43,262 nucleotides of DNA from a virus (IMGVR_UViG_3300047678_000073:1-43262), one strand, 5' to 3'; positions 19,379 to 43,262 are shown, counted from the first letter of the stretch. Translations and numbers: made by a program. The notes: generated by a model not told the origin, from the sequence alone.

Positions 19379-19981
19379 ATGGCACGTACCGCAACCAAAA
19401 CCGCCCCGATCTCCCTCCCCAAGCGCGCGAACCAGTCGGTCGGCGGCGTCGATGGCGCTACCGCACCCGTCAAGGTCAGCCGCGTCCGCACCGACAACAG
19501 CGAGAAAACCCGCAAGGCCGAGATGGAGAAGGACCTCCGCAAGATCAGCCGCGAAACGGGTGCCAAGCGCATCAGCACCATCGAGCAAGAGCGCCGCGAC
19601 GCCGAGAAGGCCAAGGCACCGAAGCCCGTCGGGCATCTGGCAGCCGGGCTAGACGGCCGGAACTCGCCGCATAGCGCCAAGGCGGTTCAGGACAACCGCG
19701 CCGCCGCCAAGAAGGGTGCGCCCGCTGCCGCGCCGAAGCCTGCCGACAAGAAGGCGGCTCGCGTTGCTGCCAAGGCTGCGACCGCCGCCCCCAAGGCCGA
19801 CGACAAGCGGGCTATCACCATCGTCAAGAAGGACTTCGCCTTCGGTCGTGAGGGCACCGCGCGCCGCCAGTCGTGGGATGTCTGCCTGAAGGCCAAGACC
19901 GCCGCCGCCTACATCGCAGCGGGCGGCGCTGCCAAGTATCTGCCGCGCTGGGTCTCGGCTGGCGCTATCAAGCTGGGCTGA
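19379..19981 (+). CDS. Lys/Ala-rich protein with conserved C-terminal module
   Basis: 200 residues from ATG with AGGAG 9 bases upstream. The first 145 residues are a long basic, Ala/Lys/Arg/Pro-rich region (histone-like composition, predicted disordered). Residues 146-200 form a distinct module beginning with a Thr-Ile-Val-Lys-Lys strand and ending AKYLPRWVSAGAIKLG. The same module closes the protein at 34334-34978. The composition suggests nucleic acid or nucleoprotein binding; the module is known from other phages but its function is not. High arginine/lysine content may reflect DNA compaction or association with replication proteins. No catalytic residues are seen. Confidence 0.65.
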   Translation: MARTATKTAPISLPKRANQSVGGVDGATAPVKVSRVRTDNSEKTRKAEMEKDLRKISRETGAKRISTIEQERRDAEKAKAPKPVGHLAAGLDGRNSPHSAKAVQDNRAAAKKGAPAAAPKPADKKAARVAAKAATAAPKADDKRAITIVKKDFAFGREGTARRQSWDVCLKAKTAAAYIAAGGAAKYLPRWVSAGAIKLG

Positions 19982-30896: not shown

Positions 30897-31133
30897 GTGG
30901 TAGAGCTTCGCAACATAACGAAGCTGGACCTACCCGCCGAGCGCATACTGCGACGGGCCATGGAAGCCGACCTGAAGCATGTAGTTATCATAGGCTACGA
31001 CCAAGAAGGAGGAGAGTACTTCGCATCTACCTACGCCGACGGCGCGCAAGTGGTCTGGCACTGTGAGCGCGCTATCTTCAAGCTAATGGTCATCGCAGAC
31101 GCGAGTGACCCGCAACACGGAGACAACAAATGA
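30897..31133 (+). CDS. Small protein of unknown function (GTG start)
   Basis: 78 residues from GTG 30897, chosen because GAGGA lies 4 to 5 bases upstream. An in-frame TTG at 30876 is the alternative. The protein reads MVELRNITKLDLPAERILR, then mixed alpha/beta with VVIIGYDQEGGEYFAST, and a helix ending PQHGDNK. This looks like a small conserved phage regulatory fold, but no family is recognised. It overlaps the next gene by four bases (ATGA). Confidence 0.55.
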   Translation: MVELRNITKLDLPAERILRRAMEADLKHVVIIGYDQEGGEYFASTYADGAQVVWHCERAIFKLMVIADASDPQHGDNK

Positions 31134-31744
31134 CAACCGCACTATCCGTCGCCAGCCGCATGTCGCTGCCCGACTATGTCCACGACGCGCTGCGCTACGA
31201 TCGCCATCCGCAGGCCCGCACGCTGGCGTTCCACCGCTTCTTCGGCGCGCCGATCCGCGGAGCCGACGACGGCGGGGCCACCCCGACGTTCGATTACATG
31301 GACGATCAGCGCGTCGCCTTCCGGGCAGGCTTCATCCTGTCGGAAGCCATCGAGCTCCTGGAGAAGGGGCTGGGGCTGACCGTCACGCTACAGGTGGCCG
31401 GGCACAAGGACGCGCCCGCCTACCATGCCAACGGCAGCGACAATGGCGAGCTCACCAGCGCCATCGAAGCTGCTATGGGCGACGCCGGGCCATGCCGGGA
31501 CCTGGAACAGGTCGTAGACGCGTTGGGAGACCTCAACGTGGTCGTTAACGGCTTCGCCATCGAGCTCGGCGTTAACATGCAGGTCGTGGACGCGGAGATA
31601 CTCGCCAGCAACATGACCAAGGCCGACAACGGGCGTCCCATCATAAGCGACGGCAACGACGGCCACCCGGCAGGCAAAATTCTCAAGGGGCCGCAGTTCA
31701 TGGAGCCTCAGCTTATGCTGGCGCTCGGCCTGCTGGAGGTTTGA
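31130..31744 (+). CDS. MazG/HisE-like nucleotide pyrophosphohydrolase
   Basis: 204 residues starting in an ATGA overlap. The all-alpha NTP-PPase pattern is visible: FRAGFILSEAIELLEKGL (about 63-80), then VVDALGDLNVVVNGFAIELG (about 128-147), with the acidic residues E-x-x-E and D-x-x-D that bind magnesium. The C-terminus EILASNMTK...GRPIISDG...GKILKGPQF is typical of phage-encoded members. It removes pyrophosphate from dNTPs, most usefully dUTP, dTTP or alarmone-type substrates. With the hydroxymethylase and HD nucleotidase, it may cleanse the pool of dTTP. The substrate is not known. Confidence 0.75.
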   Translation: MTTALSVASRMSLPDYVHDALRYDRHPQARTLAFHRFFGAPIRGADDGGATPTFDYMDDQRVAFRAGFILSEAIELLEKGLGLTVTLQVAGHKDAPAYHANGSDNGELTSAIEAAMGDAGPCRDLEQVVDALGDLNVVVNGFAIELGVNMQVVDAEILASNMTKADNGRPIISDGNDGHPAGKILKGPQFMEPQLMLALGLLEV

Positions 31745-34333: not shown

Positions 34334-34978
34334 ATGGCCCGCAAGAAACCCGCTATGGCCGAGACGCCGGTGCCCGTCGTGCTGGTGAAGCGCGATATGG
34401 TCAACATCTACTACATTGTGGTGGAGGAGTCGTTTAACGCCGTGCGGGCGCTCTACATGCCCCTGATCGTGCCCGGCGTGACCTACGGTGTGTACGATTG
34501 CACCATCCTTAACGACTACCTACCGGACGGGCGCGCTCCGCGCTACGCTCTTGCGGAACGTCCTTTACAATCAGTGCTGGTCGATTTAAGAGCAGCATTG
34601 CTGGCGCACGGCGGCACCCCGGAGGCCGTGCGTATCATGATATCTCTGGGGCAACTCAACGAGGAAGACATCGACATGGCAAAGGCAAAGCTCGCAACGA
34701 AGGGTGCCGCTCCTGCGGCCGAAAAGGCTCCTGCCGCGAAGGGCAAGGGCAACACCGCCGCGCTGGAGAAGGCGCGCGCCGCACGGGCCGAGGCCGGTCC
34801 CGACGTGCGCAAGATCACCATCCTCAACAAGGAAAACCCGTACCGCGCCGATTCCGGCCGCGCGGCTTCCTTCGACGCGCTGAAGGGCGCGAAGACCGTC
34901 GAGGATTACAAGACGGCGGGCGGCAAGGTCAAGTACCTCAGCCGCTGGGAAGGCGAAGCCCGCATCAAGCTGGGCTAA
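34334..34978 (+). CDS. Protein with conserved C-terminal module (paralogous with 19379-19981)
   Basis: 214 residues from ATG 34334. Residues 1-114 form an alpha/beta part with VLVKRDMVNIYYIVVEE and a Leu-rich helix. Residues 115-157 are a Lys/Ala-rich linker. Residues 158-214 are the module also found at the end of the 200-residue early protein: both begin with Ile-Thr-Ile and end with KYL(P/S)RW and IKLG. ATG 34676 (Met115) has GAGGA 10 to 11 bases upstream and could give an independent 100-residue form. The molecular role is unknown. It precedes a hairpin and the modification operon. Confidence 0.6.
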   Translation: MARKKPAMAETPVPVVLVKRDMVNIYYIVVEESFNAVRALYMPLIVPGVTYGVYDCTILNDYLPDGRAPRYALAERPLQSVLVDLRAALLAHGGTPEAVRIMISLGQLNEEDIDMAKAKLATKGAAPAAEKAPAAKGKGNTAALEKARAARAEAGPDVRKITILNKENPYRADSGRAASFDALKGAKTVEDYKTAGGKVKYLSRWEGEARIKLG

Positions 34979-35055: not shown

Positions 35056-35691
35056 ATGTTCACAGTAATAAAGCTGGGCGGCTGCAATGGCAGCGGGAAG
35101 ACCAGCGTGGCCCGCGCGCTCATAGACATGAGCCGGGCCACTATGCGCGTTCAGGCCAAGAACGGCGCATATTATCAGGGCGAAATAAACGGCATCAAGG
35201 TCATCGTGCTGGGCAGCTACGAAAAGGTCTGCGGCGGCATGGACACCATCAGCGATAAGGAGGACCGGCTGGCGCTGCTGAAGAAGCATTGCCGGGGCGA
35301 TGCCATCGTGTTCTACGAAGGGCTGATCACTGGCAAGACCTACGGCGCGATGGGGGCCATGAGCGAGGAGCATGTCAAGAAGGGAAAGGGCCGGTGGCTG
35401 TACGCCTTCATGGACACCCCGTTCGAGGTCTGCGTGGCGCGCACGGAACAGCGCCGGGCAGCGGCGGCAGCCGCCAAGGGCACGACGCCGTCAGTGCTGG
35501 ACCCCGAGCGCACGCTGCGCCCGACATTCCAGTCATGTCAGCATCTTGCCGAAAAGCTCCGGGGCACCCGCGCCGCCAAGGTCGGCCCTCAGCCGTATCC
35601 GCATCCGGTCCTGATGCTCAACCATAAGCACAAGCCCGCCAAGCTGGCAGAGGCGTTGTTCGCAGCGGCGGAGAAGCTCCATGCGCAGTAA
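35056..35691 (+). CDS. P-loop kinase, 5-hydroxymethyl-dU DNA kinase type
   Basis: 211 residues from ATG with GGAG 9 bases upstream. A Walker A GGCNGSGKT spans 8-16. The motif SYEKVCGGMDTI (54-65) resembles the YExPCGGxDTI block of phage kinases associated with thymine hypermodification, and FYEGLITGKTYGAM (87-100) is the matching lid-side block. It is proposed to phosphorylate the hydroxymethyl group of 5-hmdU in DNA. The adjacent aGPT-type protein and hydroxymethylase strongly support this. A general nucleotide kinase is the alternative. Confidence 0.7.
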   Translation: MFTVIKLGGCNGSGKTSVARALIDMSRATMRVQAKNGAYYQGEINGIKVIVLGSYEKVCGGMDTISDKEDRLALLKKHCRGDAIVFYEGLITGKTYGAMGAMSEEHVKKGKGRWLYAFMDTPFEVCVARTEQRRAAAAAAKGTTPSVLDPERTLRPTFQSCQHLAEKLRGTRAAKVGPQPYPHPVLMLNHKHKPAKLAEALFAAAEKLHAQ

Positions 35692-36598
35692 GGACCTCGC
35701 CCTGTTCATTCAGGGCCGCGAGCGCTATCGCAAAGCGAAGGAAGGCGGCTACACCGTGAAGCCGCGATACCACGATGCGATCATTTCGCATTATCGCTTC
35801 TGCAACGTCGTACGCGCCGATGACCGCACCACGCGGGATATCTTCGACTGGGCGCAGCAATGGGCCGGGCACGAAGACCTCTGGTTTGCGTTCGTGGTGG
35901 CGCGGCTGTTCAACAATCGGCCAACGCTGGACGTCATCTCCAAGTACGTCCTGCCGTTCAAGCCCGCCGCTATGGGCGCGGCGCTGGCTAAGCGCAAGGC
36001 AGCGGGGGAGAAGCTGTTCAATGCCGCCTACATCGTTTCCACGAACGGGCGCGCGATGGACAAGGTTGAGTACGTGATTATCCACGTTCTTCAGCCTCTC
36101 TGGGCGGCGCGGAAGGCCATGCGGCCCCGGCTTATGACGTCGGGCAACATCGCCGCCAAGGACAAGGCCATGCGGTACGAAACGCTGGACTCGTTCCACG
36201 CCAAGCTCCAGACGGCGCAAGGGCTGGGCAGCTTCATGGCGGCGCAGGTGATAGCCGATCTGAAATACTTCGCGCCGTATTGGTCAGCCGAGTACGGCAT
36301 CCCGACCTCCGCCGCCTCGGACTGGTGGACCTTTGCCGCCAGCGGGCCGGGCAGCCGTAGGGGCCTCAATAGGGTGATGGGGCAGCCGGTGGATGCGCCG
36401 TGGCGGGAAGCCAAGTGGCGGGAGACCCTGAGCCTTCTACATCAATCGCTGCTTCCGCTGCTACCGCCCGACGTGGGCACCCGGCTATCGGCGCAGGACG
36501 TGCAGAACTGCCTGTGCGAGTTCGACAAGTATGAGCGTGCCAGAACGGGCGAAGGCACGCCGAAGCAGATTTACCGCCCCTTTGAAGGAGAAGCATAA
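35681..36598 (+). CDS. aGPT-PPlase / HMUDK-helical domain thymine modification protein
   Basis: 305 residues; ATG 35681 overlaps the kinase end by 11 bases, with GGCGGAG upstream. The N-terminal block HYRFCNVVRADDRTTRDI (37-54), then LWFAFVVARLFNNRPTL (67-83), matches the helical, DNA-glycosylase-like family named alpha-glutamyl/putrescinyl thymine pyrophosphorylase, or 5-hmdU kinase helical domain (PF18723-like). Further parts are long helices with DKAMRYET. Members accept phosphorylated 5-hmdU DNA and attach an amine or amino acid. The substrate here is unknown, since no PLP enzyme or amine-forming partner is nearby. Confidence 0.7.
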   Translation: MRSKDLALFIQGRERYRKAKEGGYTVKPRYHDAIISHYRFCNVVRADDRTTRDIFDWAQQWAGHEDLWFAFVVARLFNNRPTLDVISKYVLPFKPAAMGAALAKRKAAGEKLFNAAYIVSTNGRAMDKVEYVIIHVLQPLWAARKAMRPRLMTSGNIAAKDKAMRYETLDSFHAKLQTAQGLGSFMAAQVIADLKYFAPYWSAEYGIPTSAASDWWTFAASGPGSRRGLNRVMGQPVDAPWREAKWRETLSLLHQSLLPLLPPDVGTRLSAQDVQNCLCEFDKYERARTGEGTPKQIYRPFEGEA

Positions 36599-37701
36599 TG
36601 TCGTTCGTACACAACGTCAATGTCGACAACGTCAACGAGGCGCTCCAGCGCGGCCTCATGATCCTGACCAACATGGGCACCCGCGAGTCCAGCCGGAACG
36701 GCCCGGTGGCGGTGATGGACGGCCCGGTTATGACGATTTACAAGAAGCCGTATCAGCGCGTCCTGTTCAACAGCGTGCGCAACGCCAATCCGTTCTTCCA
36801 CCTGTTCGAGTCGCTGTGGATGCTGGCGGGCCGCAACGATCTTCCGTGGCTGGCGCAGTTCAACAAGCAGATGGCCACGTACAGCGACGACGGCGGTCAG
36901 ACGCAGCCCGCCGCCTACGGCTACCGCTGGCGGAACTACTTCGGCTATGACCAGATCGAGGCGGTGCTGGAGATCCTCAGGGCCGATCCCAACAGCCGCC
37001 GCGCCGTGCTGGGCATGTGGGACAGCGGTGGCCAGCGCGACAATTCTGTGTTGGTCGGCGTGGGCGACCTGACGGCGGTGCTTCAGGGCAGCGCCGATGT
37101 TCCGTGCAACACGAACTGTTTCTTCCGCGTGCGTAACGGCGCGCTGGACATGATGGTCAACTGCCGGAGCAACGACATCCTCTGGGGTGCCTATGGGGCG
37201 AACTGCGTCCACTTCTCGGTGTTGCTCGAATACATGGCGGGCAAGCTGGGGCTGCGCGTCGGTGCGATGTACCAGAACAGCTTCAACTTCCACGTCTATC
37301 TGGAAGTGCTGGGCAGCAGCCAGAAGGCCGTCGATATGATGCAGGAGAACAGCGACCTCTACAACACGAAAAAGGTCGCCCATACCCCGCTGTTCGGCGA
37401 GCTTGAGGACCCGCTTGACTTCGACCGCGATCTGCTGTATTTCATGCACATTGCCGACCCCGCGGTTGACGATGTTCGGCTCGTGGAGCCGGAGCCATCC
37501 GACCCAGTCAGCGGCTACCGCACGGAGTTCTTCTTGAACACCGTGACGCCGATGCTCTGGGCGTGGGGCGCGCACAAGCGCAAGGAGTACGCGGAGGCCG
37601 AGCTCCACGTAACGAAGATCAAGGGCGAAGATTGGCGCATCGCTTGCAAGCAATGGATCGAGGCACGCCACGCCTCCTACCGGGAGAAGGCAAATGGATA
37701 A
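36598..37701 (+). CDS. Thymidylate-synthase-fold dUMP hydroxymethylase candidate
   Basis: 367 residues; ATG in a TAATG overlap. TS-family residues are present: Glu71 in FHLFESLWMLAGRND, Arg pair in NSRRAVLGMWD (132-142), nucleophile Cys170 in DVPCNTNCFFRVRNG, and RSND (190-193) with GAYGAN ending at Asn202. Asn at that place suggests dUMP, not dCMP. The overall form, long insertions and the C-terminal extension (about 60 residues longer than bacterial TS), together with the kinase and aGPT neighbours, indicate a dUMP hydroxymethyltransferase making 5-hmdUMP rather than dTMP. A conventional TS cannot be excluded without structure or assay. Confidence 0.7.
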   Translation: MSFVHNVNVDNVNEALQRGLMILTNMGTRESSRNGPVAVMDGPVMTIYKKPYQRVLFNSVRNANPFFHLFESLWMLAGRNDLPWLAQFNKQMATYSDDGGQTQPAAYGYRWRNYFGYDQIEAVLEILRADPNSRRAVLGMWDSGGQRDNSVLVGVGDLTAVLQGSADVPCNTNCFFRVRNGALDMMVNCRSNDILWGAYGANCVHFSVLLEYMAGKLGLRVGAMYQNSFNFHVYLEVLGSSQKAVDMMQENSDLYNTKKVAHTPLFGELEDPLDFDRDLLYFMHIADPAVDDVRLVEPEPSDPVSGYRTEFFLNTVTPMLWAWGAHKRKEYAEAELHVTKIKGEDWRIACKQWIEARHASYREKANG

Positions 37702-38248
37702 CGGACTTATCGCGCTCAACAAGATGGGCTGGCTGCGCGCCGGGGGCTACACCCGCCGATACCACGGCTGGCGAACCATCAAGGACGACACGGTGGGGCA
37801 GCACTCCTACAATGTCACGAACATCATCCTCGTGCTACGCCCTGACTGTCGCAAGGAGCTCGTAGTGGCGGGCGTGCGGCACGACAGCCCGGAGCATGTT
37901 ACGGGCGATATGCCCGCCGACACGAAGCGCCGGGTGCCCGGTGCCAAGGCGATGATGGACGCCGCCGAGGAGGTCGCATGGGCGGACATCGACATCGCCG
38001 ATCCGTGCCTCGCGCTTACGGACGACGAGTACCGGGTGATGAAGCTTGCCGACTATTTCGACGGCATGATGTTCAGCATCCAAGAGCGGTCCATGGGGAA
38101 CCAATACATGGACATCGTGTTCGAGCGGTACTCGTCGTACATGCACAAGATGCTGGACGGCTTACCGCCCGCCATCGAACACGAAATCTTTGAAGCCCTG
38201 CAAGGTGCATGGGTGAGCGCAGGAGGACCGGCTTATGTCCGCGAATGA
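37694..38248 (+). CDS. HD-domain 5'-nucleotidase (YfbR-like)
   Basis: 184 residues; ATG overlaps the hydroxymethylase end by eight bases. The metal ligands are visible: His37 in VGQHSYNVTNIIL, His63-Asp64 in VRHDSPEHVTGDMP, and Asp120 in MKLADYFDG. The family hydrolyses deoxynucleoside monophosphates. In this operon it may destroy dTMP or related products so that only 5-hmdU enters DNA. The usual HDLAE is replaced by HDSPE, which keeps the acid. The substrate is inferred. Confidence 0.75.
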   Translation: MDNGLIALNKMGWLRAGGYTRRYHGWRTIKDDTVGQHSYNVTNIILVLRPDCRKELVVAGVRHDSPEHVTGDMPADTKRRVPGAKAMMDAAEEVAWADIDIADPCLALTDDEYRVMKLADYFDGMMFSIQERSMGNQYMDIVFERYSSYMHKMLDGLPPAIEHEIFEALQGAWVSAGGPAYVRE

Positions 38249-38621
38249 ACGGCAGCACGGCGGTGACCATTACAAGGGCACCGGCTACGAATATTGGGAC
38301 TTCGTCAAGGACGCCGGGCTTGGCTACCACGACGGCAACGCGGGGAAGTATGTCTACCGCTGGCGCAAGAAGGGCGGGGCCATTGACCTCCAGAAGGCTG
38401 TCCACTATCTGGACAAGTGCATGGAGCTTGGGGTGCAGCCGACCTACAGCGGCATGACCACCGAGCGCGCGGTGGAGCGTTTCGTGCAGACCAACGGCGT
38501 ACCGCCCGAGGAAGCCACGGCGCTCACCCTGATCTGCCGGGGCCACCACCGGCAGGCTCTTACGGTCGTGAACCGCTTGCTGGCGGAAGCCCGTAGCGCC
38601 GGGGCGCTGCTGAGCGAGTAG
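38235..38621 (+). CDS. DUF3310 protein
   Basis: 128 residues from ATG 38235, with AGGAGG 8 bases upstream; it overlaps the HD gene by 14 bases. It has the DUF3310 pattern HGGDHYKGTGYEYWDFVKD, then GNAGKYVYRWRKKGGAIDLQ and KAVHYLDKCME. This small domain is found in many phages and has been called a nucleotide kinase-like SaV domain, though its activity is unclear. The C-terminal 50 residues are a helical extension with RGHHRQALTVVNRLL. It is the last early gene before the terminator. Confidence 0.75.
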   Translation: MSANERQHGGDHYKGTGYEYWDFVKDAGLGYHDGNAGKYVYRWRKKGGAIDLQKAVHYLDKCMELGVQPTYSGMTTERAVERFVQTNGVPPEEATALTLICRGHHRQALTVVNRLLAEARSAGALLSE

Positions 38622-40570: not shown

Positions 40571-43262
40571 TTAGTTGACAGGCTCTTCAAGGTTGATGGG
40601 GTCGGTAAGCTGCCGCTCACTCTTGGCGTTGTCCAGCCCCGACGTGGTTTCGCGTGCCGGGTTCTGGCTGGCGATGATGGACATGACGATGCGCCGCGCA
40701 TTGGTCTTGTCCGTCTTACGGCCAAGGTACGCGATAGCTTCATCGACGCGGTTTGGATCCAGCGCCATATCGACCAGCCGCTCGGCGTTGCGGTCGCCGA
40801 TGCCCGCGTTGTTCAGGTGGCGGGCCACCGCTTTCACGATGCCGATCTTGCCACCGCTTGCCGCGTTGAGGCCGAAGTCGAGCAGCGCCCCCGCCGCGTC
40901 TTGACCACGGGTCTGCGTTTGGCTTCCCGTGTTCGGGCTGACATACTGGGCACGCTCGTACCGATCACGAACGACCTTGGCCTGATCACGTATGCGGCCC
41001 GCGCCCTCGTCACCGATAAGCGCCGACGTGCGGTTCAAGAAGTTCGTGCCATTGGCAGCCTCGTCGGCCAGCCCTAGCGCCGCACGCGGGTTCTTGCCAG
41101 CCGTGTTCTCGAACTGGCGGCGGGCTGCCACGCGGGCCACCGACCGGGCGCTCGGGCCAGCGACGATCTGGGGCTGCGTGGAGACGCTCGCCATGCCGCT
41201 GTTAGTGGCACCCGCGCTAGGCCCGGCCTTGGTCCCAGTGACCCGGAAACCACGGAGGTTGTCCAGATCGGGCATCTGCTGGCGCAGCGCATAGATCATG
41301 TCGCGCATCGTGCCCGTGCCGTAGGTGTTCCGAACGTCGTCCCAGTCCGGCACGCCGTCGATGTTTATGACGCCATCGCGGCTGCCCGGCGCGCGGGTAA
41401 TGGTGCCCGTGATTTTCCGGCCGTCGGGCAGCGTGTAGGCGACCTTCGTATCGGCCGATAGGAAAGACTTGGGGTCGCGGTCGCCGAGGTAGCCCTTGAT
41501 CTCCGTGCGGGCTTGGTCGAGCGGAATGCCGTACTGGTCGGCGTGATCCTGCGCCATTTTGTCCAGCGCGGCTTCGCTCGTAGTGGGCGGGCCGTCTAGC
41601 GTCAGGGTGCCCGCAGGATCGCGGGTTTTCATCATTGGCGTGGGCTCGTCGGATAGCGCCCGGTTGGCGGCGATGGCCTCGTCCGGGTTGCCGCCGCTGA
41701 GCGCGCCGGTCCCAGTGTCAGCCGCGTCCACAAGAGCGCTGGCAGCCTTGAAGTTCCCGCGCGCCGCCGCGTAGCCGGGCGCGGCCTTTTCGCCCTCACC
41801 GATCAGCGTACCGACCATCTGGTTCAGGATGCGGCTCTGCCCGCTGGCGTCCGGGCTGTTGGAGCGGGCTTGGAGGCCGCGCTTCACACGATCCAGCATG
41901 TCCAGCGTGAACGTGGGCAGCGGCTCGCCGGGCTTCACGCCCTGAGCCGTAAGCTGGGCGCGCACCTGATCACGCGCAGCCGGGGCCATGCCCTCGGGCA
42001 GCAACGACATCACCCGATCGAGCTCGGAAGGCTCGTTGCCCCGCTTTAGGGCGCTGAGGAACCCCGCGACCTCGGTCGGGTTATCGCTGGTCTCGATGGC
42101 CCCGGCCAGCGCCTTACGGCCCGCGCCCGTATCAAGAACGCGTCGCAGATCGGGAGTAACCGCGACTGGATTGTCACGGAACTGCGCATACTGGTCGTCA
42201 GCAAGCGCGGTGCGGGATTTCTCGATGCGCCCCACGACGTCCGCCGTGGGCTCCGAGGTTGGCGCGATATTCTCGGCCAGCCGGGCGGTGTCGCCTTGCA
42301 CGTTGGCGCGGCGGGTGTTCGCGAAGTCGACGGCCTGCGTCCGCCCCGGCGTGTTGCGACTTGCGGCCGCACGGATCGTGGCAGCACCCGGCTCGTCCAC
42401 GAGGTCGACCAGCGGGTTGTCGGTGAAGCCAAGCGCGCGGCGGGCGTCCAGCTTGGCAGTGAGCGCCGCTGGGTCCTGCGGAGCGCGGTCGGCCAACGAG
42501 CTAAGCCCGCTCAGCCCGCCACGGACCAGCGCGTTCACGCCGGTTGCGTCGCCAAGGCGGTAGAGGATCTTGCCGGTGCCCCGCACGGCCAGCGGGGCAA
42601 GCTTGCCGAATACGGGGCCGAGAACCGCGCCCTCGCCGCCGCCGATCATCGCACCTTCGCCACGGTTGTCGCTATCGTTGCCCGCGCCGCTGACCGCGCC
42701 ATACACTCCGCCCACGCCAGCCGCGCCCGCGACGCGCCCGGTTTTCGTAGCGAAATTGGCGACGCGGCCACCCGGCAGCGCAAGCGTCGGAATGATGCCG
42801 CCAGCATAACCGGTCCCGTAGGCGATAGGATGCTCGTTCCATGCGTCGGTTTTCTCCTGATCGCGGCCCGCACGCTCGCGCTCTGCGTCTGTCGCCCAAT
42901 CGCCGCTGCCCTCGTCGAGCTTGCGCCCGAACACACCGAGAAGCCGGTTGACCGGGGTGTTCCGCCCAAGCCAATTTCCGAGCGCCGCACCTTGGCCGCT
43001 GATTTCGTCGTCCCAGCCGAACAGGGCCGAGCTCTTCAGGCCGTCGAACGCCGCCTGCCCGGTGCCGGTCTTGTCTGGCCCTTTAACGGGTGGCCCCAGC
43101 GTCCAGTTGATGTTCGGTCGCACCTTGGGATTCGACGCCAGCCACTGATCGTACTTCTTGCCCATTGCGGGCGTGAAGCCTTGCGGGTTGACGGGGCTGT
43201 TCGACGCCTGCTGATATGCGAGCAAAGTCGCGCTCGGCACGCGCATCTGCGTCAGCCGCTGC
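40571..43262 (-). CDS. Large ejection/internal virion protein, main part (continues at base 202)
   Basis: This is the remainder of the protein begun at 1-462. An ATG at 43246 is only internal; the frame runs through to 462, giving about 983 residues. Glycine-rich stretch residues (AVSGAGNDSDNRGEGAMIGGG region) and a long Ala/Arg/Asp-rich helical body follow. A small beta-rich part with YTLPDGRKITGTITRAPGSRDGVINIDG (split around 740 of the joined protein) is unlike the rest. The C-terminus is Asn/Lys-rich. It is the largest protein after the virion enzymes and lies last before the lysis genes, as large ejection proteins do. No enzyme domain was recognised. Confidence 0.75.
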   Translation of the reverse strand, partial: QRLTQMRVPSATLLAYQQASNSPVNPQGFTPAMGKKYDQWLASNPKVRPNINWTLGPPVKGPDKTGTGQAAFDGLKSSALFGWDDEISGQGAALGNWLGRNTPVNRLLGVFGRKLDEGSGDWATDAERERAGRDQEKTDAWNEHPIAYGTGYAGGIIPTLALPGGRVANFATKTGRVAGAAGVGGVYGAVSGAGNDSDNRGEGAMIGGGEGAVLGPVFGKLAPLAVRGTGKILYRLGDATGVNALVRGGLSGLSSLADRAPQDPAALTAKLDARRALGFTDNPLVDLVDEPGAATIRAAASRNTPGRTQAVDFANTRRANVQGDTARLAENIAPTSEPTADVVGRIEKSRTALADDQYAQFRDNPVAVTPDLRRVLDTGAGRKALAGAIETSDNPTEVAGFLSALKRGNEPSELDRVMSLLPEGMAPAARDQVRAQLTAQGVKPGEPLPTFTLDMLDRVKRGLQARSNSPDASGQSRILNQMVGTLIGEGEKAAPGYAAARGNFKAASALVDAADTGTGALSGGNPDEAIAANRALSDEPTPMMKTRDPAGTLTLDGPPTTSEAALDKMAQDHADQYGIPLDQARTEIKGYLGDRDPKSFLSADTKVAYTLPDGRKITGTITRAPGSRDGVINIDGVPDWDDVRNTYGTGTMRDMIYALRQQMPDLDNLRGFRVTGTKAGPSAGATNSGMASVSTQPQIVAGPSARSVARVAARRQFENTAGKNPRAALGLADEAANGTNFLNRTSALIGDEGAGRIRDQAKVVRDRYERAQYVSPNTGSQTQTRGQDAAGALLDFGLNAASGGKIGIVKAVARHLNNAGIGDRNAERLVDMALDPNRVDEAIAYLGRKTDKTNARRIVMSIIASQNPARETTSGLDNAKSERQLTDPINLEEPVN
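43061..43262. repeat. Terminal direct repeat, right copy
   Basis: Same sequence as 1-202 apart from one base. See the left copy: Ser codon here, Ala codon there. Confidence 0.93.

Follow-up and report, generated by a model that had tools for sequence, protein, structure and literature searches.

A phage cassette predicted to phosphorylate 5-hydroxymethyldeoxyuridine in DNA, with no recognized amino acid:DNA transferase in the complete genome

The 5-hydroxymethyl-2′-deoxyuridine (5-hmdU) DNA kinase of phages (5-HMUDK) moves the gamma-phosphate of ATP onto 5-hydroxymethyluracil (5hmU) in double-stranded DNA, and the product resists NcoI (PMC8009891). A template phosphorylated by 5-HMUDK is still transcribed, at 37% of the level of unmodified template and 10% of that of 5hmU template (PMC6457204); commercial 5-HMUDK was used in the published NcoI and transcription work (PMC8009891, PMC6457204). 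Phages with the kinase do not modify all of their thymines and show a TG/TC preference (PMC6449724), and the end products of Bacillus phage SP10 and Delftia phage PhiW-14 are amino derivatives (PMC5977210). The subject of this analysis is a kinase cassette of the virus IMGVR_UViG_3300047678_000073:1-43262 (the whole stretch of 43,262 nucleotides, hereafter the window), in which the phosphate may be the finished mark. To our knowledge, a phosphate on a DNA base has so far been known only as an intermediate toward amino derivatives; if the proposal is true, a genome marked in its final state by a phosphorylated base would be new.

The cassette occupies positions 35056-38248, where the initial annotation had recognized a compact operon of four overlapping genes for thymine modification. 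The overlaps are 11, 1 and 8 nt in order, a fifth gene is joined by an overlap of 14 nt, and all four cassette proteins exceed the curated Pfam cut-offs in a search of the window proteins.

35056-35691, plus strand: 5-hmdU DNA kinase (211 aa; P-loop; motifs GGCNGSGKT and CGGMDT; PF18748)
35681-36598, plus strand: Hel, helical partner of 5-hmdU DNA kinase (aGPT-PPlase clade 1; 305 aa; PF18723)
36598-37701, plus strand: thymidylate synthase (TS)-fold enzyme, predicted dUMP hydroxymethylase (367 aa; PF00303, phrog_5131)
37694-38248, plus strand: HD-domain YfbR-like nucleotidase, predicted to remove dTMP/dTTP (184 aa; PF12917)
38235-38621, plus strand: DUF3310 protein, fifth overlapping gene of the cassette (PF11753, 31 bits)

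The kinase scores 30.7 bits against PF18748 (cut-off 27) and 224 bits against a model built from 20 related kinases, among which the Walker lysine K15, G60-G61, D63, E88 and G89 are kept in 90-100% of sequences. Members of the 5-HMUDK family combine a PF18748 P-loop kinase with a PF18723 helical domain, in cis or in the next gene; the window has both, the helical domain in the overlapping next gene, and the enzyme is predicted from these features to phosphorylate 5-hmdU in duplex DNA. Searches by sequence for solved structures gave no credible match to the kinase or to Hel. The family is labelled "terminase small subunit" in phrog_800 and many RefSeq records, which is a misannotation.

The TS-fold enzyme (68.6 bits against PF00303, cut-off 24.3; PHROG TS family phrog_5131, E=5e-103) is 42% identical in alignment to gp58 of Pseudomonas phage M6, the solved structures that it matches best are CMP hydroxymethylases, and Arg134/135, Cys170, Arg190, Ser191, Asp193, Asn202, His232 and Tyr234 are invariant in 13 sequences. 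It combines the TS fold with the catalytic Cys170, the uracil-selecting Asn202 and the arginines that bind phosphate, as expected of a dUMP hydroxymethylase, and from its family context and its M6 gp58 relatives it is predicted to make 5-hmdUMP, not dTMP, a distinction that sequence alone does not fully draw between the two enzymes (PMC5977210). The HD protein scores 41.2 bits against PF12917 (cut-off 25.9) and has the H...HD...D pattern of metal ligands (H37, H63-D64 and D120), invariant in 12 sequences; its predicted removal of thymidine nucleotides would resemble the removal of dATP by DatZ of phage S-2L (PMC8342488).

Families and active sites agree with the initial annotation as to the modification cassette, its P-loop kinase, its TS-fold enzyme and its HD nucleotidase, and the profile searches place the proteins within the modification families, but the second gene had been taken for an amine-attaching aGPT-PPlase and that role has to be withdrawn. 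Pfam now splits the old aGPT-PPlase group into clade 1 (PF18723, the helical domain of 5-hmdU DNA kinase), to which Hel (111 bits, cut-off 25) and M6 gp55 belong, and the amino acid:DNA transferase (ADDT, PF18724), to which M6 gp51 and Pam3_47 belong; the latter is the transferase, and the window is without it.

The window is the whole genome of a phage. A stretch of 202 nt at one end recurs at the other with 201 positions identical; a minus-strand gene at 462-1 runs on in frame from 43060 to give 984 codons with a single terminal stop; and capsid, portal, terminase, polymerase A, primase-helicase and ligase are encoded. Because the genome is complete, as the end repeat and the gene open across the joint indicate, genes missing from it are truly absent. 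Iterated hidden Markov models run on 296 open reading frames of the window gave only noise for ADDT, pyridoxal phosphate (PLP) enzymes, flavin adenine dinucleotide (FAD) enzymes, radical SAM enzymes of the spore photoproduct lyase (SPL) type and with SPASM domains, Nmad5, TAGT and GT-B, so that the amino acid route of thymidine hypermodification is not represented and the initial annotation was correct in reporting no PLP, radical SAM or amine-forming gene. Pfam matched no ADDT, TAGT or radical SAM across the whole window record, and the iterated ADDT profile, run without filters at full sensitivity, found nothing above noise. The PF18724 model detected all of its positive controls (M6, ViI, PaMx11 and the very divergent PhiW-14) and none of 14 control genomes. 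No acetyltransferase was noticed among the window proteins scanned, a count made without an acetyltransferase profile search.

1-202: terminal direct repeat, copy 1 (201/202 identical to copy 2)
43061-43262: terminal direct repeat, copy 2 (201/202 identical to copy 1)
34334-34978, plus strand: conserved gene directly 5′ of the exchangeable slot described below, recurring in related loci
31130-31744, plus strand: nucleotide pyrophosphohydrolase-like gene (phrog_671, E=4e-19)

The window is not alone in this condition: ADDT is absent over the whole length of nine of the 14 virus records that bear the kinase (G000, G001, G007, G009, G015, G028, G031, G034 and G040), two of which, the window and G040, have end repeats. 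The kinase is the sole window gene found in all four other kinase-only genomes and in none of 12 kinase-lacking genomes, and because only the kinase tracks the kinase-only genomes, a dedicated unrecognized transferase is argued against. The gene at 34334-34978, considered as the missing transferase, was ruled out; it adjoins kinase, ADDT-plus-kinase, TAGT and GT-B cassettes alike.

Related loci were collected from IMG/VR by a scan with Hel, used in place of a kinase scan of viral contigs that had given three loci. The 80 loci found, once the window and three named phages are added, reduce to 64 at <90% identity, and the 56 of these with a TS gene nearby form the comparison set. A recurring order is seen (SNF2 helicase, conserved gene, slot, hel, TS, HD, DUF3310) in which the content of the slot varies: kinase alone in 15 loci, kinase and ADDT in seven, TAGT glycosyltransferase (PF20691) in 18, a family resembling beta-glucosyltransferase (BGT) in seven, GT-B in three, a SPASM radical SAM protein alone in three, and no assignment in three, two of which contain a GT-B-like protein seen by eye; slot identities were verified by Pfam. 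TAGT or GT-B takes the slot in sister phages that share the window's capsid, portal, terminase and polymerase genes. Among these loci picked by similarity to Hel, the cassette is modular, with hel, TS and HD constant and the neighbouring decorating gene swapped, and one decorating transferase per cassette is the commonest pattern. Nearly every locus has DUF3310 after HD or TS. The BGT-like family (L011, L025, L030, L032, L040 and L042; about 307-382 aa) has no Pfam or PHROG match, and the first PDB match of its AF2 model (predicted local distance difference test score, pLDDT, 82) is T4 beta-glucosyltransferase (E=1e-8, template modelling score 0.55-0.60); it sits beside hel, TS and HD and is likely a DNA glucosyltransferase for 5-hmdU. 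SPASM radical SAM proteins occur in 11 of the 56 loci (L013, L015, L022, L027, L034 and others), beside glycosyltransferase cassettes or alone, and in none of the 56 beside a kinase.

Kinase and TAGT never occur together, either in the 56 loci (22 and 18 carriers; p=1.5e-5, uncorrected for kinship) or in 41 whole records (14 and 16 carriers; p=1.4e-4, likewise uncorrected). The four slot classes need 24 changes on the Hel tree against 26.6 for shuffled labels, and 21 against 25.3 on the TS tree; since the slot changes so often, relatedness explains little of the exclusion. Tree support is modest; the supported clade of eight that contains the window comprises four TAGT cassettes and four kinase cassettes, one of the latter with ADDT. 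ADDT near hel and TS is never without the kinase (0/7).

Hel is almost exclusively viral, GTDB genomes yielding four contigs of metagenome-assembled genomes and no host assignment, and it occurs beside glycosyltransferases without any kinase, both within loci and across whole records: a kinase within reach of hel and TS is absent from 34 of the 56 loci, and a kinase is absent from the entire record in 27 of 41. These counts call into question the present naming of PF18723 in Pfam as part of a kinase. No fusion of Hel to TAGT, GT-B or kinase was found among the loci fetched. Since Hel accompanies TAGT in the absence of a kinase and there are cassettes without it, it is neither specific to the kinase nor indispensable; since it accompanies kinase and glycosyltransferase cassettes alike, it is probably an accessory, not part of the kinase chemistry, which may engage 5-hmdU DNA or present the substrate to whichever decorating enzyme is encoded. 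Its AF2 model (pLDDT 90) matches by fold the Hel of PhiW-14 and the 637-aa kinase of SP10; Foldseek found no PDB match with E below 1. Hel was also considered as a remote ADDT and rejected on sequence, profile comparison finding no match between the two, with a fold resemblance to a single ADDT-named protein (BFVD, E=1.8e-3). A helix-hairpin-helix (HhH) DNA-glycosylase fold, prompted by a GxGSFMAAQVVAD helix and reportedly also by Iyer et al. 2013, was dropped when Foldseek returned nothing from the PDB. Two loci (L153, Rhodoferax phage P26218, and L152, MW202557) are ADDT-kinase-TS-HD cassettes with hel absent from the whole record, and nine (L053, L061, L065, L066, L069-L071, L073 and L079), several in large phages, have hel with no TS, kinase or glycosyltransferase within 6 kb.

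The chain of reactions suggested by these families would begin with the conversion of dUMP to 5-hmdUMP by the TS-fold enzyme, while the HD nucleotidase, perhaps with the pyrophosphohydrolase-like protein of 31130-31744, would drain the competing thymidine nucleotides. Host kinases would make 5-hmdUTP, the phage polymerase would copy it into DNA, and the P-loop kinase with Hel would place a phosphate from ATP on some of the 5-hmdU residues of duplex DNA. The basic claim that 5-hmdU is formed and then phosphorylated is considered highly probable. As there is no ADDT in the complete genome, the chain would stop at 5-phosphomethyl-dU or its pyrophosphate, a bulky negative group that would block restriction enzymes as would the sugars attached by relatives from the same slot. 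Protection would need no further step, because phosphorylated 5hmU blocks NcoI and leaves the template transcribable, and because relatives have one glycosyltransferase in this slot, the simplest reading is that one phosphate completes the modification. The proposal as a whole, that the cassette makes 5-hmdU DNA and that the phosphate is its finished mark, is given an even chance. The initial annotation had allowed for a minimal or new end product; the core now appears smaller still, ending at the phosphate. A broader proposal, in which a widespread group of phages has 5-phosphomethyl-dU as a stable finished base and PF18723 is a general accessory on 5-hmdU DNA for either kind of enzyme, is more tentative and falls a little short of even.

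Several points weigh against a terminal phosphate. All kinase phages characterised so far pass through the phosphate as an intermediate, and PhiW-14 accumulates pyrophosphoryl-hmU only as the mutant am37 (PMC5977210). Phosphorylated 5hmU is costly in that it reduces transcription by Escherichia coli RNA polymerase in vitro (PMC6457204). A fast-evolving or unrelated transferase, different in each kinase-only phage, would evade the gene-tracking comparison. Kinase-plus-ADDT cassettes and TAGT cassettes exist without Hel (Rhodoferax P26218 and the spring-water genomes MW202557 and MW202897), and since loci were picked by similarity to Hel, its constancy is partly by construction.

It is rather unlikely that the phosphate is only an intermediate, later exchanged for an amino acid or amine by a transferase of unrecognized type or a host enzyme, which would be the route of M6, ViI, PhiW-14 and PaMx11. 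All four of these characterised kinase phages have ADDT, and their known end products are amino derivatives; two close relatives of the window (G018 and G023) have ADDT directly 5′ of the kinase, and Hel, given its one fold match to an ADDT-named protein, might retain transfer activity. Against this stand the noise-level result of the ADDT profile at full sensitivity, the lack of any window gene but the kinase that tracks the kinase across genomes, the occurrence of Hel beside glycosyltransferases without a kinase, the lack of sequence match between the Hel and ADDT profiles, and the absence of ADDT from the 14 control genomes.

The possibility that phosphorylation is transient or regulatory, for example silencing some templates or protecting only replicating DNA, while virion DNA contains mainly 5-hmdU or T, would be consistent with the reduced transcription of phosphorylated templates (PMC6457204) and the thymines that kinase phages leave unmodified (PMC6449724), but it is improbable: the sole phosphatase-family gene beside the kinase encodes the nucleotide-type HD protein, and in sister phages the slot is filled by glycosyltransferases, whose marks are lasting. 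Ordinary thymidylate metabolism, in which a true thymidylate synthase and a deoxynucleotide kinase would leave plain thymine in DNA, is the least credible alternative and very improbable. Although all TS active-site residues are present, including the dUMP-reading Asn202, and the sequence cannot fully separate the two enzymes (PMC5977210), the protein groups with M6 gp58 in its PHROG family, CMP hydroxymethylases are the solved proteins closest to it, its relatives sit with DNA-modifying enzymes, and the neighbouring P-loop and PF18723 proteins exceed curated cut-offs for 5-hmdU DNA kinase.

Each enzyme family and the wider pathway are already known. Within the literature searched, the following are new: a cassette with the kinase only, seen in a complete genome and in relatives of it; the rapid exchange of kinase and DNA glycosyltransferase beside hel, TS and HD; and the BGT-like family in the slot. 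The cassettes form a natural set of interchangeable enzymes that would write different groups on one base: the cultured Brevibacterium phage LuckyBarnes (L150) would be expected to carry glycosylated 5-hmdU, and the kinase-only phages phosphorylated 5-hmdU. Elsewhere in the window, the product of 31130-31744 is a possible dUTP/dTTP pool enzyme, and its gene is not conserved across the other kinase-only genomes compared; the proteins of 19379-19981 and 34334-34978 have a common C-terminal domain ending in KYLxRWxxxxxIKLG.

The closest arrangement is that of Pseudomonas phage PaMx11, where gp46-gp52 comprise ADDT, FAD oxidoreductase, acetyltransferase, kinase, Hel, TS and HD; gp49-gp52 match the four genes of the window cassette in kind and order, the kinases being only about 28% identical, and of the enzymes that act after the phosphate step the window is without the upstream ADDT and FAD genes and has no recognized acetyltransferase (as judged without a dedicated profile search). 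The order is likewise that of the window in Pseudomonas phages M6 and YuA, which make 5-(2-aminoethyl)deoxyuridine (5-NedU), with kinase gp54, Hel gp55, TS gp58 and HD gp59 in M6, but M6 also has ADDT gp51, PLP enzyme gp52, SPL-type radical SAM gp53 and Nmad5 gp56, none of which is in the window. The 637-aa kinase of SP10 includes the region that Hel matches by fold; PhiW-14, whose Hel matches likewise, has the ADDT that the window lacks. T4 beta-glucosyltransferase-like and TAGT enzymes, absent from the window, occupy the same slot in sister phages and transfer sugar, not phosphate. Pelagiphages of the HTVC023P type have TS, clade 1 aGPT-PPlase, 5′-deoxynucleotidase and glucosyltransferase in one region, reported without the slot comparison (PMC9599517); they share TS and PF18723 with the window and have a glycosyltransferase where it has a kinase. 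LuckyBarnes, with the order TS-TAGT-TAGT-hel and neither ADDT nor kinase, again has TS and PF18723 as in the window.

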